DNA from: Alphaproteobacteria bacterium
Lineage (GTDB): Bacteria; Pseudomonadota; Alphaproteobacteria; TMED109
Assembly (NCBI GenBank): GCA_022819905.1
Contig: JAJEGJ010000087.1
Location: forward strand, 1-64,000
Direction of reading: 5' to 3'
Length of the DNA stretch: 64,000 nucleotides
Shown: positions 43,919 to 50,919 of the stretch, piece after piece
Layout: every line of letters starts with the position of its first letter
How positions within the stretch are numbered: the stretch's first letter is position 1
Made by a program: the position numbers and the translations under genes
The notes under the pieces: model-generated
What the model saw: the letters and a program-made list of their open reading frames with translations, nothing else
The model's database searches: none
What the model was told of the DNA's origin: nothing

Positions 43919-44541
43919 CGCGCCTTTTCGGTTCGCATGCGCGTACCAAAGCTGTGCCACCTCCAAGAGATTTGGCGTCCAGGGGGCCCGCCGAAGACAC
44001 GCGGTGCCAGGGTGTCGATCCGGAAGCGTTCGATCTTCAGCTGGAAGGCAAGTTCAGAGTTCTTCGGGGCCTGGCCCGCGGGCGTATTGGAGAGCCGCAG
44101 AGAGGTTCCGACCCAGCTCTTCGTGCCGTTCCTGCTCAAAGGTCAAGCCTACGTGCGCGAGGCTGAGCGCATTGAGGTGTTCCCGGGTGGCATCACTATC
44201 CAACCGGGTTCGGGCCGGGCTTATCGGGCGTCCCCTGCCGGCGCGGCGTAGAGGTCCATGGAGCGGTGCGCCACGGGTGCGACGTGCAGCTCCTGCAGGC
44301 ACCGACGCGACTGCCTACAAGCTGAACCGCACCGCCAATCTCCTCGCCGCCGGATAGGCCTCCCGCAGCGGTGGCCCGGACCATGTCCCGAGCTCCGCGA
44401 CGCAATGACACAACCCGCCCACGACGGTACGGCAAGATCCAAACTGACGCTGCCAGGCCACCGCGATCGGTCACGCCATATCCTTGACTCTGCAAACAAA
44501 TCCTTCACCGCACACAGATCTCTAGTAAGGCAATAGCACTC
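43919..44541. other. Region without a recognised gene
   Basis: Open frames occur on both strands, but none matches a family known to me and they disagree with each other in frame. The composition changes toward AT at the right edge, where the helicase island begins. Confidence 0.4.
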
Positions 44542-45312
44542 TCAGGAAAAGTAAAATATTCTCCGTTCCCCCTCTGTGAAATATTGATCGCCCAGTCGCT
44601 TACACTTCTGTTTTTCCTCAGCCAATAGTCGATCAAATTCGTTGCTCAAACAAGCGTCATCATCGCCACCCCTCCAGCACTGCGGATAGTAATACTTGAG
44701 AACGAGTAGGGAGAACGCAAAAGGTGTAATTTTCCGCGCCACTGCCCACCTACTTTGAGGCAGATGACCAATGTGAAAATGCGCGCATGGATGTCTCACT
44801 TCTCTGTATTGTGTCACTGAGTGCTCAAACCGAATCGCTGGCATATCTACACGATGCTTGGCTTCGCCAACTAGATCAAGGTAATCTTCGACCGAAATGT
44901 TACCCTTTGAAACCTCACTGGCCAGTTCCAAGCCATGCCCCATCTCACTGCCATCTGGCTGGTTCAAGTCGTTAAACTTGATTTCATCGCTAGCTTCGCC
45001 AAGAAAATTACTGTCTGATTGTGTTATCCCGCCGAACTGTAGGTACGGATTGGGGTAATAGGCGTATCTCAGATCTTCTCCAAATATAGAAAACTGAAAA
45101 TACGAAAAATCATTCAGAATGAAATTGTAGTGTCGCAATCGACAGCCAGCTACGTAAACTTCCGTATACGACCCGCCTGCATCCAGCGCGATGTCCCGAA
45201 ATTCATCATTCACACCCAACGGGTGGAAGCCGGCTACCGACTGCCCAATACCAAGCCTGGCGACCAACTCCCAAGAAAGACGAATACCGCGTGCTACATC
45301 GCCCTCACTCAT
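44542..45312 (-). CDS. DUF2290-like protein, partner of the adjacent helicase
   Basis: A 256-residue protein from ATG 45312. Its start overlaps the stop of the helicase gene (ATGAGTGA), so the two are translationally coupled. The central part has 'VYVAGCRLRHYNFILNDFSY', then 'LRYAYYPNPYLQFG', and the conserved motif R-H174-P-C-A-H178-F-H180-I-G after 'IRFEHSVTQYREV', followed by 'SRWAVARKITPFAFSLLVLK' and a Tyr-rich helix. The HPxxHxHxG pattern is what I recall of DUF2290; it could bind metal or serve as a catalytic site. Function unknown. Base composition is clearly AT-richer than flanking genes. Confidence 0.72.
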   Translation of the reverse strand: MSEGDVARGIRLSWELVARLGIGQSVAGFHPLGVNDEFRDIALDAGGSYTEVYVAGCRLRHYNFILNDFSYFQFSIFGEDLRYAYYPNPYLQFGGITQSDSNFLGEASDEIKFNDLNQPDGSEMGHGLELASEVSKGNISVEDYLDLVGEAKHRVDMPAIRFEHSVTQYREVRHPCAHFHIGHLPQSRWAVARKITPFAFSLLVLKYYYPQCWRGGDDDACLSNEFDRLLAEEKQKCKRLGDQYFTEGERRIFYFS

Positions 45313-47446
45313 CAACGCGCTCCGCAGCCAAAATCCGCCCGATTTCTTCTTCGTTAAAGCCCTCCTCCCGCAGCTCTCCCAAGTACTTCTCCCGGATTTG
45401 CTGAGCCTTAGCGGCACGCTCTGTTCTGTCGCGCTGAATCGTTTCGACTTCATCTGTGTCGGGCATCACAAACCTTAGGTTGGGGAACTCGTCCATAGCT
45501 CGCCTGACCTCAGCTTCAATTGCATGGGCATTCTCGCCCACTCCAGATATTCTTAACCACGCATTGGACCGAGTAAACGCGGCGAACAAACGGTTTCGAC
45601 CTCCCCGCCTGCTTCTGTCGACCGCATCAACGCCAGCGGCAAAAACAACTGCCGCCTCGTGCCCCTTAGCACGATATACGGTGGAAAGAGTTATTTTCCC
45701 TTCAATTGCGAAAGGCGGCTCACTATAGGGATCGGCAATAATATTGTTGGTCTCGTACCCCAAACTAGCAAGTCGTTCCGAAAGTGCTCGAAAATACCCT
45801 TTGGCATTCCTGTCATCGAGCGCAACGATCAATATATCTTCAGGCTTTAGTCCTTGCTTTAGGAATTCCTGTGTCTCCCGAGCGATCCATCCAAGTTCCT
45901 CATTAAAACTCTTGGCCGCCACGGCTTCAACCAGATCTGAAATATCGTGCTTGGCTAGGCTAAGCGGACTGTTTTCTTCGGGGCGGAAGATTACTACTTC
46001 ACGGCCTGTTTCAAACCCGTTCGAAGTGATTTTGTAGCCAACGTCTTGCCAATGCTCTTTGTTTTGCAGCATTTGAACTATCTGCTCTCCGTAACACCCG
46101 AAGCCAAGTGCATGTGCGACAACTAATACTTCCCTCTGATTGCGATAACACTTACTGAGCACGGTGTCGTTCTCAGCGCCGGTCGGAAGCTCGGCGTGCG
46201 CTCGTTCCAGATCAATTCTAGGTTCTCCGTCAGCATCTAGGCCAAATAGTTGAGCCGGTGTTTTTAGCTGCACATCCATGATGTTCTGAAGTTCGTCGTA
46301 AGCCCAAATTACATTCTTTTTGTTTCTCACGCCTTTGGTCATCATGAAAGCCAGCTCATAGAACGCGCTCGGAAAGTCCTGACCTTCGTCAATAAGAGCG
46401 TAGTCAAAGTAAGGGTCAATAACTGCCTTGCTAATCAGTTCTCGACAAACATAACCAAATGGATCACGGGTAGAACCAGATCTCGCTTCGCTAAGATTCA
46501 GAGGTCTCTGTTCTGCTCTCTTGCAAGCGTCCGTGTATGCCCCCGGACGACTTGTGCCGCCCCAAGCGTGTCGCACCTGTACTTGCGACCAATCAGGATC
46601 TTCCTCCTTGTAGTGTCTATAAAAGCGCGTAATTAAAGTAACGAAAAGAGTCTGTAAACTCCGGGTATAGAAGGTCACCAACACTCTAGCATTTGGGTGA
46701 GTGAGGTGAATATGCGCCGCCTTCATAGCGAGAATTATGGTTTTTCCAGAACCTGCCAGCCCTCGAATTCGCTGCGGTCCCTGTATTAGTGACAGTGCAA
46801 CCTGCCGCTGCTTCGCGTCAAAGTTCGCGATCTCGTCTTCTAGTTGAGATAATGCGACTGCATACGTTTCAATATCGGGATTCGCAACTGTGCGCCTTTG
46901 AGATCTTGAAATAGCCTTGCCACCCTCAATAACTGAACGCACCTCCTCAATCTCGGTATCTCCAATGGCGTCACCGTACATCTCATTGAGGAAATCACTA
47001 AGGCCTTGATATGAAAAGACCAGCGAGCAGGATAAATCTGTCTCGCCGAATTTGTCGTCACCGTCTACTAGCAGGATCAATGGCTCTACTCTAAACTTGA
47101 GATCGCGTCGTGAGCGTCGGAGGAATCGACTTCGGAGCAGTCGACCTTCTAAGTTACTGGTGAAATCCTCAAGTTGGCGGTCGATTTGTTCGAGGGGCTC
47201 TAGCTCTACAGAAAATACACTACTGTGGCGCACCAGACGCATGGCGACAATGCCATGGACGGGAGAAAATATAAGCACATCAGGCTTTAAAGTTCTTGAT
47301 TCGTAATCGTTGTAGGTTGGAAAATCGTAGTAAATCAGGGCATCCGAAAGCCGCAGATCTTCGCTTTCTTCGTACAGGTATTCAATAAGTTGTCGACCAT
47401 CAGGGTCCTTCGTTATACGATCACTTGTAACGATTGTTTCAGCCAT
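45305..47446 (-). CDS. Superfamily I (UvrD-like) DNA/RNA helicase of a putative defence system
   Basis: A 713-residue helicase. Walker A is GLAGSGKT (229-236), the Walker B/DEXQ box is DEGQDF (353-358), motif IV-V region 'ITLSTVYRAKGHEAAVVFAA' (584-604) and motif VI 'NRLFAAFTRSNAWLRISG' (617-635). The N-terminal 200 residues contain 'LKPDVLIFSPVHGIVAMRLV', which has the shape of the core strand-turn-strand of NERD-like PD-(D/E)xK nucleases, but the usual ExK is replaced by MRL, so the nuclease is probably inactive. Acidic C-terminal tail with a coiled helix. Low GC, no homologous neighbour on either side except the coupled DUF2290-like gene. A two-gene anti-phage or DNA-repair system is inferred. 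Confidence 0.88.
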   Translation of the reverse strand: MAETIVTSDRITKDPDGRQLIEYLYEESEDLRLSDALIYYDFPTYNDYESRTLKPDVLIFSPVHGIVAMRLVRHSSVFSVELEPLEQIDRQLEDFTSNLEGRLLRSRFLRRSRRDLKFRVEPLILLVDGDDKFGETDLSCSLVFSYQGLSDFLNEMYGDAIGDTEIEEVRSVIEGGKAISRSQRRTVANPDIETYAVALSQLEDEIANFDAKQRQVALSLIQGPQRIRGLAGSGKTIILAMKAAHIHLTHPNARVLVTFYTRSLQTLFVTLITRFYRHYKEEDPDWSQVQVRHAWGGTSRPGAYTDACKRAEQRPLNLSEARSGSTRDPFGYVCRELISKAVIDPYFDYALIDEGQDFPSAFYELAFMMTKGVRNKKNVIWAYDELQNIMDVQLKTPAQLFGLDADGEPRIDLERAHAELPTGAENDTVLSKCYRNQREVLVVAHALGFGCYGEQIVQMLQNKEHWQDVGYKITSNGFETGREVVIFRPEENSPLSLAKHDISDLVEAVAAKSFNEELGWIARETQEFLKQGLKPEDILIVALDDRNAKGYFRALSERLASLGYETNNIIADPYSEPPFAIEGKITLSTVYRAKGHEAAVVFAAGVDAVDRSRRGGRNRLFAAFTRSNAWLRISGVGENAHAIEAEVRRAMDEFPNLRFVMPDTDEVETIQRDRTERAAKAQQIREKYLGELREEGFNEEEIGRILAAERVDE

Positions 47447-48114
47447 CTAATTTCACCGTAGTAGGTTGGATTGTCCAATGATCAAGATCGACACGACGCA
47501 ATGGCGTGAATATGCCTATTGATGATGAGATTGTGCTAGTTGATCGAGCGCCATTTCTCGGGGTCCGATTAGGTCCCGTGCGATCATATGCAATTGGCGC
47601 CGCATTGTCATAGTTTGCGAAAACTACAGGACAAGAGAGAGGATGGCCGAGGCCTCGGTGTGTCCCGTTTTCGACCGATCATCTTGTGATTAGGTGGTCA
47701 TCATCACCGACTCTCCACCAGAATTGGTCGTTCTTGCTTGCGAGCCACTGCACCGGATCCGTCTGCCGACGACCGCGCTTGCGGCGCTGATGGCGACGGG
47801 CTCTAGAAGGCCATTCCGATCGCCTGACGCCGGACAGCTGAAACCACGGCCGTCGGCCAGCCTGCCAACCCGCCGACAATGCCCTGGTAGCCCGGTGCTG
47901 CCCTGATCCCGGTCGGCAGGTTGTCGCCGGCCATCGCGTTCCAGGTCATCTGGGATCGCCCAAGCAGCTCGGTCGGTCGGAGAATCCTGGCCGAGCCGGC
48001 AAGAGACCTCAGAAGCGGCGTGCCGGCCCTGCGTTCGATCACGCGAGGATTTCTCATTGCAGGTGGTCGAACGTCGAAAGGAAGCGCTGTTTGGCATGCT
48101 CGTACTTGCCCGCC
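47447..48114. other. Promoter region of the helicase operon and decayed DNA
   Basis: The first 100 bp are AT-rich and probably carry the helicase-operon promoter. The rest is high in GC, with frames on both strands that match nothing recognised. Confidence 0.4.
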
Positions 48115-49810: not shown

Positions 49811-50506
49811 TCAAGACTGGCTGTCATCAGCGATTTCGCGTTTCTCATAGACGGTCTCAACCTTCTGACCGTTCCATACGTAGCAGAGGTGCCGCTCCTG
49901 GCGGGCGTTCGAGAGCAAGGGAGGTCGTAACACCGCAACACATTGACCGCCTGCCCGGCGGACGCTGTCATAGGCAATCCCGTTCGAGCCGGCCGCGCGC
50001 AGCGTTCTCGCCAGATGCTGGCCAGCGGCGTAGTTGTCGTTGTGGTAGACGAGCGGCTGGGACGCCTTCTGGCCGCACAGGTCATGCAGGTTCCCGTCGA
50101 GGTTGACCAAGTAGACCCGCATGTCCAGTTCCATGCGTGCCTGGGCCGTGGCGCTCAGGAATCGCTCGCGGTGATGTTTGGTCTCAGCAATGGCCGTGTA
50201 GAGATCGTTCGCAGCGTAGAAGACACCGTAAGTACCGTCCGAGAAGCGGCTGCCGTTCGGGTTCAGGTGGGTGAAAGCTGCCATGACGACGGCGGTCTCG
50301 GGTCCGCTGATGCGATCCTCCGGCGGCACGAGCTCAATATCGCCGGCCTCGTCACGAAGCCTGGGATTCGTGAGGGCCTCTAGGGCGAAGATCGCCTCGA
50401 GGTCGTCCGGATCGGTCACGCGCTCGAAGAGCTGAATTGGCGGAAACCGGCTGGGGATGATTCGCCAGCACGGCCTCCATTGGATGTGGGCAACCGGCAG
50501 CGTCAT
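49811..50506 (-). CDS. RES-domain toxin
   Basis: A 231-residue protein from ATG 50506. RES family markers: 'WRIIPSRFPPIQLFERVTDP', 'GSRFSDGTYGVFYAANDLYT' (the Arg and Tyr active-site region), 'AIAETKHHRERFL' (with the Glu), and 'GNGIAYDSVRRAGGQCVAVL'-like stretch (NGIAYDSVR...CVAV) with the Ser. RES toxins degrade NAD+. The start overlaps the antitoxin stop by 4 bp (ATGA). The module appears complete and intact. Confidence 0.93.
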   Translation of the reverse strand: MTLPVAHIQWRPCWRIIPSRFPPIQLFERVTDPDDLEAIFALEALTNPRLRDEAGDIELVPPEDRISGPETAVVMAAFTHLNPNGSRFSDGTYGVFYAANDLYTAIAETKHHRERFLSATAQARMELDMRVYLVNLDGNLHDLCGQKASQPLVYHNDNYAAGQHLARTLRAAGSNGIAYDSVRRAGGQCVAVLRPPLLSNARQERHLCYVWNGQKVETVYEKREIADDSQS

Positions 50507-50919
50507 GCCCAGCCGCCCCGCTGGGCGTCGAGGTATTGCCGTACGACGAAGAGGTCTGCCACCTGGCCCGAGAGCATGCGGTCGAGCGCCGACCGACCGC
50601 CAAATCCCGCTGCAGCGTTTGGACGCTTCACCCATTCATCTGCCGCCTGATCGTTGGGAAGCAGCAGCTGAAGCGCCTTGTAGATACCCAGAATGTAGGA
50701 AATGCGCTCCAGCGTATCCTTCGGCAGAACCGTGTTCGGATTCTTCTTCCACTTGAAGAAGGTAGATCGAGCTGTGAGCCCAAGCAGGGTCATCTGTTCC
50801 TCGACGGAGAGGCTCCAGAGTTCGGCGATGCGAAAGAACGTCCGCAACGCCGGGCCGGAGAGGCCCTTCCGGTCAAAGGCTGTTGCCGGATGCACCCGTG
50901 CAACCATGACTAAATCCAC
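50503..50919 (-). CDS. Xre/MbcA/ParS-type antitoxin of the RES module
   Basis: A 138-residue antitoxin. The start is GTG 50919 or the internal ATG at 50907. The N-terminal HTH region reads 'RIAELWSLSVEEQMTLLGLT' and 'STFFKWKKNPNTVLPKDTLE', followed by 'ISYILGIYKALQLLLPND' and the DUF2384 toxin-binding tail 'EWVKRPNAAAGFGGRSALDR' with MLSG. It blocks the NAD+ site of the RES toxin and represses the operon. Confidence 0.93.
   Translation of the reverse strand: MDLVMVARVHPATAFDRKGLSGPALRTFFRIAELWSLSVEEQMTLLGLTARSTFFKWKKNPNTVLPKDTLERISYILGIYKALQLLLPNDQAADEWVKRPNAAAGFGGRSALDRMLSGQVADLFVVRQYLDAQRGGWA

Follow-up and report, generated by a model that had tools for sequence, protein, structure and literature searches.

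Helicase+DUF2290 is a two-gene anti-phage system that inhibits phage T7 in E. coli and was discovered among genes carried by P4-like satellites and in prophage hotspots (Rousset et al. 2022, PMC9122126). The pair PA1372/PA1371 of Pseudomonas aeruginosa PAO1 has been assigned to the same system (PMC11637435), although it is known through plasmid-cost compensation and not through phage assays. In PAO1, compensatory mutations fall in the helicase gene (PMC4208098, PMC4410645), and when PA1372 loses its function, a small plasmid is no longer costly to its host and no longer induces the SOS response, while the helicase mutation left the cost of four other plasmids unchanged (PMC4410645). Our search of the literature on Helicase+DUF2290 returned no published explanation of its mechanism. 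Two further systems offer points of comparison: Gabija (GajA-GajB), whose two genes include one for a UvrD-like helicase, and Hachiman (HamA-HamB), which combines a small protein with a helicase and in which the sensor helicase is described as restraining an effector nuclease (PMC12278908).

Here we analyze a two-gene operon in a 64-kb stretch of alphaproteobacterial DNA (hereafter the window), which is very probably a divergent member of the Helicase+DUF2290 system. An earlier note on this DNA had guessed that the pair was a defence system but took pairs of this composition to be uncharacterised. The guess was sound and withstood both checks that the note had named, as the small protein matches no metabolic family and the pair recurs in other genomes. 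The second statement does not hold, since both proteins match the PADLOC Helicase+DUF2290 models and the pair corresponds to a published system that is active against T7. The window operon shares both protein families, the gene layout and a location on mobile or accessory DNA with Rst_HelicaseDUF2290 (PMC9122126). In gene content and setting it also resembles PA1372-PA1371, a low-GC island pair in which the genes for a UvrD_C-type helicase and a DUF2290 protein lie side by side.

Results

Gene layout and distinction from Gabija and Hachiman

Both genes and their 8-nt overlap were recovered at the positions and lengths previously given (Table 1), and the overlap suggests that translation of the two is coupled. 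Gabija could be set aside, as the partner protein matches DUF2290 only and no OLD/TOPRIM family in Pfam or PADLOC, so that the nuclease partner of Gabija is missing from the window pair; likewise, the window helicase matches GajB weakly (2e-7) compared to its dedicated model (2.7e-130). For Hachiman, the small-protein-plus-helicase arrangement is common to both, but the window helicase is UvrD-like, and neither HamA/DUF1837 nor HamB was matched in Pfam or PADLOC.

Table 1 Features of the locus, with coordinates in the window.
Feature	Position	Strand	Evidence
UvrD-type SF1 helicase gene, 713 aa	45305..47446	-	PADLOC, Pfam, AF2 model, motifs
DUF2290 gene, 256 aa, beginning at an ATG within the helicase stop overlap	44542..45312	-	Pfam PF10053, PADLOC, conservation, AF2 model
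8-nt overlap ATGAGTGA of DUF2290 start and helicase stop	45305..45312	-	sequence
AT-rich insert with the pair, ~3.86 kb	about 43925..47780	.	homology breaks against congeneric genomes (blastn)
Gene remnant fragments	47781..48109	-	intact in congener G002 (L095 6318-7253), 311 aa, dihydrodipicolinate-synthase (dapA)-like by eye

The pair lies on an AT-rich insert at a variable site

An AT-richer block had been described at the pair, and the composition bears this out: GC content is 0.485-0.565 across 44-48 kb (~48-57%) against mostly 0.65-0.70 (65-70%) on either side, with other GC dips elsewhere in the 64-kb window. Homology breaks with congeners delimit an insert larger than the interval 44542-47446 previously outlined. 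The left break falls at 43920-43924, just past a GST gene, in 5/5 congeners compared by blastn (G001, G002, G003, G005 and G006), and homology restarts at 47781-47816 in four of the five. Between these points, G005 has ~69 bp, whereas G001, G002 and G006 have ~1.68 kb of unrelated sequence; that of G002 is AT-rich and contains an HTH-like ORF. In G003, ~12 kb of GC-rich DNA lies at the site beside the GST gene. Because the insert is absent (69 bp) or replaced by other DNA in congeners, these genome comparisons identify it as cargo that was acquired horizontally, at a site whose content varies.

The DUF2290 gene was not found in any of six congeners searched. A sample of 144 genomes likewise gave no match in the remaining members of the family, and a single other genome there, from the same class as that of the window, matched DUF2290. 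In a phylum-wide sample, 9 of 398 genomes had it, the window's own genome counted.

At the G002 site (L095 7654-8284), the HTH-like ORF overlaps a small ORF in a manner that looks toxin-antitoxin-like by eye. Separately, positions 49811-50919 of the window hold a RES-domain protein and an Xre/MbcA/ParS-type antitoxin; this RES protein has matches in 7/7 genomes of the genus, one of them partial, and its G001, G002 and G006 copies contain in-frame TGA codons.

The two genes recur together and are probably co-inherited

Relatives were gathered from genomes, both whole and as contigs, as well as from plasmids and viral contigs. The recurrence set comprises those loci at which a long helicase ORF occurs together with a DUF2290 ORF, i.e., 34 distinct loci including the window (35 rows, one contig appearing twice). 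The pair recurs with near-perfect fidelity: at the 34 loci the helicase gene lies upstream of DUF2290 and both share a strand, and intact pairs are spaced by -23 to +43 nt. Where a helicase had no DUF2290 partner, it was cut off by a contig end, was only distantly related, or, in an archaeal example, preceded a DUF1837 gene. This archaeal helicase, a relative on a Haloarcula plasmid (L075 3009-8611), is followed directly by genes for DUF1837 and a DEAD/DEAH helicase, a Hachiman-like arrangement. On Acinetobacter pittii pMS32-3 (L076 2950-3619), DUF2290 is split into two ORFs beside a full-length helicase, which suggests a frameshifted, decaying copy.

Distance matrices of the two proteins were strongly correlated (mirror-tree r = 0.91, reached by none of 2000 permutations), which is what would be expected of a co-inherited pair and is by itself no proof of physical interaction. 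The pair has defence-type neighbours on two plasmids: on one from Agrobacterium they include genes for a SIR2-family protein and an AAA ATPase, and on one from Nostoc they are restriction-modification genes. The pair also occurs on viral contigs, for the scanning of which the all-clade DUF2290 alignment was too diverse; an annotated phage collection gave no DUF2290 match at E<=0.001. At one locus (L031 1-1837), DUF2290 adjoins an ORF that resembles a P2-type portal protein by eye, which fits the prophage hotspots of Rousset et al.

A UvrD-type helicase with a degenerate nuclease-like N-terminus

The helicase matched the PADLOC model Helicase PDLC03002 over residues 12-694 of 713 (E=2.7e-130) and Pfam UvrD_C_2 (2.8e-8), and 18/18 helicase rows scanned matched the same PADLOC model. 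The helicase motifs reported earlier could be confirmed; the protein has Walker A GLAGSGKT (residue 229), DEGQD (353), YDELQ (383), YRAKG (591) and FTRS (624). In an AF2 model (pLDDT 85, pTM 0.85), the best VIA match was Deinococcus UvrD (Z 24.8), and the sequence profile favoured PcrA, HelD and UvrD. Top Foldseek matches of this model were the helicase region of human Schlafen SLFN11/SLFN14 (E 5e-17), with the alignment to SLFN11 (9erd) starting at model residue 1. However, Schlafen was tied with UvrD in VIA (Z 23.4) and absent from the sequence profile, and we rejected a special Schlafen kinship.

Residues 15-127 of the helicase are predicted to follow an alpha-beta-beta-beta-alpha-beta order in the AF2 model. 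This order is typical of PD-(D/E)XK enzymes. Based on this predicted fold and the aligned members, residues ~1-130 are a putative degenerate PD-(D/E)XK/NERD-like domain without ExK: D56 is kept in the window helicase, whereas ExK is absent there and in all aligned members. The D...ExK residues of an active NERD or PD-(D/E)XK nuclease are thus incomplete, and since the loss extends to every aligned member, the apparently dead nuclease-like domain is a trait of the family and not peculiar to the window copy. The earlier description of a NERD-like N-terminus without ExK was therefore correct as to the missing ExK, but "NERD-like" reflects a local pattern and the predicted fold order, as Pfam NERD was matched by none of 18 helicases at E<=0.1. 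One aligned relative (L042 5923-8004) is alone in having D...DxK in its N-terminal domain and is possibly a still-active nuclease-like form.

Conserved residues of the DUF2290 protein

The product of the smaller gene matched Pfam PF10053 (2.4e-10; 40.6 bits, cut-off 25) and two PADLOC DUF2290 models (E=3e-13 for PDLC02998), and 14/14 DUF2290 rows scanned matched the same PADLOC models. DUF2290 was its only Pfam match, with none to a metabolic family. The protein is 17-21% identical to the Pfam-core clade, and its divergent subclade carries HPxxHFHIG and NRW motifs in place of HPxxHLTLG and CRIP; it further differs by a low-confidence insertion at about residues 94-136, a stretch over which its model is unreliable.

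Five residues (R161, H174, H178, R188 and F200) are identical in all 35 aligned rows. D68 does not vary in the rows that have it, position 163 holds either D or E throughout, and P175 is P in 31 rows. The HPxxHxHxG site highlighted earlier (His174, His178 and His180, all at the positions given) is thus in part a family feature: His174 and His178 are invariant throughout, whereas the third histidine is a subclade trait, since position 180 is H in 17/35 rows and T in 16/35. The AF2 model, built from 20 sequences (pLDDT 79, pTM 0.80), is mixed alpha/beta and places R161, H178 and R188 on three successive predicted strands, with H174 just ahead of the second.

No fold match to this model was found among solved structures (best Foldseek E 0.58, best VIA Z 2.4) or in the viral structure library BFVD (best E 0.33), and the sequence profile retrieved nothing convincing from the PDB (best E 0.051). 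The protein may adopt a new fold, which these searches do not by themselves prove. A TumE toxin (PF20126) match over the H-rich motif was discarded (hhalign probability 0.1%, 7 columns); the TumE alignment was small, with nine rows, one of them misplaced.

Discussion

In the mechanism that we consider most likely, the helicase would sense DNA and license DUF2290 to act as an enzymatic effector, and the effector role that the earlier note proposed for the small protein is plausible. Specifically, the helicase, i.e., an SF1 motor with a catalytically dead nuclease-fold platform at its N-terminus, would sense unusual replicating DNA such as phage or plasmid forks, ends or ssDNA, and would then release or activate its DUF2290 partner. 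In the latter, an enzymatic site would be built from R161, D/E163, H174, H178 and R188, which successive beta strands contribute, and its activity, at best guess that of a metal-independent nuclease, would halt infection. The effects of PA1372 on plasmid cost and SOS induction are consistent with sensing of replicating mobile DNA, although the trigger may be narrow or different, because the cost of four other plasmids was unaffected in PAO1. In its complete form, i.e., a helicase-licensed enzyme of new fold with an R-(D/E)-H-H-R active site, triggered by replicating mobile-element DNA, the proposal is tentative and rather unlikely to be right in every part. The enzymatic role is read from conservation, and the same invariant residues may equally serve in ligand binding or in keeping the complex assembled. 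Defence activity of the window copy is likewise predicted from family membership, the T7 block being that of another member.

Some alternatives keep the same known system and redistribute the roles. DUF2290 could be a non-enzymatic regulatory or nucleic-acid-binding subunit, with the helicase motor itself acting as effector and blocking the replication of phages or plasmids. This is possible, if still doubtful: it was the helicase gene that carried the compensatory mutations of PAO1 (PMC4208098, PMC4410645), and DUF2290 yielded no fold or nuclease match, but almost all intact loci keep DUF2290 beside the helicase, and its polar invariant residues are of the kind typical of active sites. An enzymatic DUF2290 of the HEPN ribonuclease type appears extremely improbable. 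The window sequence RHPCAH does fit R-(N/H)-xxx-H, so that the motif is literally present (R173-H178), but its arginine is R in 3 of the 35 rows and the model is mixed alpha/beta instead of a HEPN helical bundle; because R173 is not conserved, we excluded a HEPN RxxxxH site.

It is also very unlikely that the locus is an ordinary housekeeping helicase operon without a link to defence. Matches to the same helicase model do occur in 7/14 control genomes, among them those of Bacillus subtilis and Thermotoga maritima. However, neither the six congeners nor the other sampled members of the family have DUF2290, no synteny of the pair was seen in the congeners compared across the genus, the pair sits on an AT-rich insert whose site is empty in a congener, and another family member has proven anti-T7 activity (PMC9122126).

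Taken together, these results add a divergent subclade to a defence system that has been published but whose mechanism awaits explanation. They also document movement of the element, with one genomic site that is empty, holds Helicase+DUF2290 or holds other DNA in close relatives. By combining distant members, DUF2290 is narrowed to six invariant residues that lend themselves to mutagenesis: D68, R161, H174, H178, R188 and F200. If the reading of DUF2290 as a helicase-licensed enzyme is true, it would account for both the defence against T7 and the plasmid cost.
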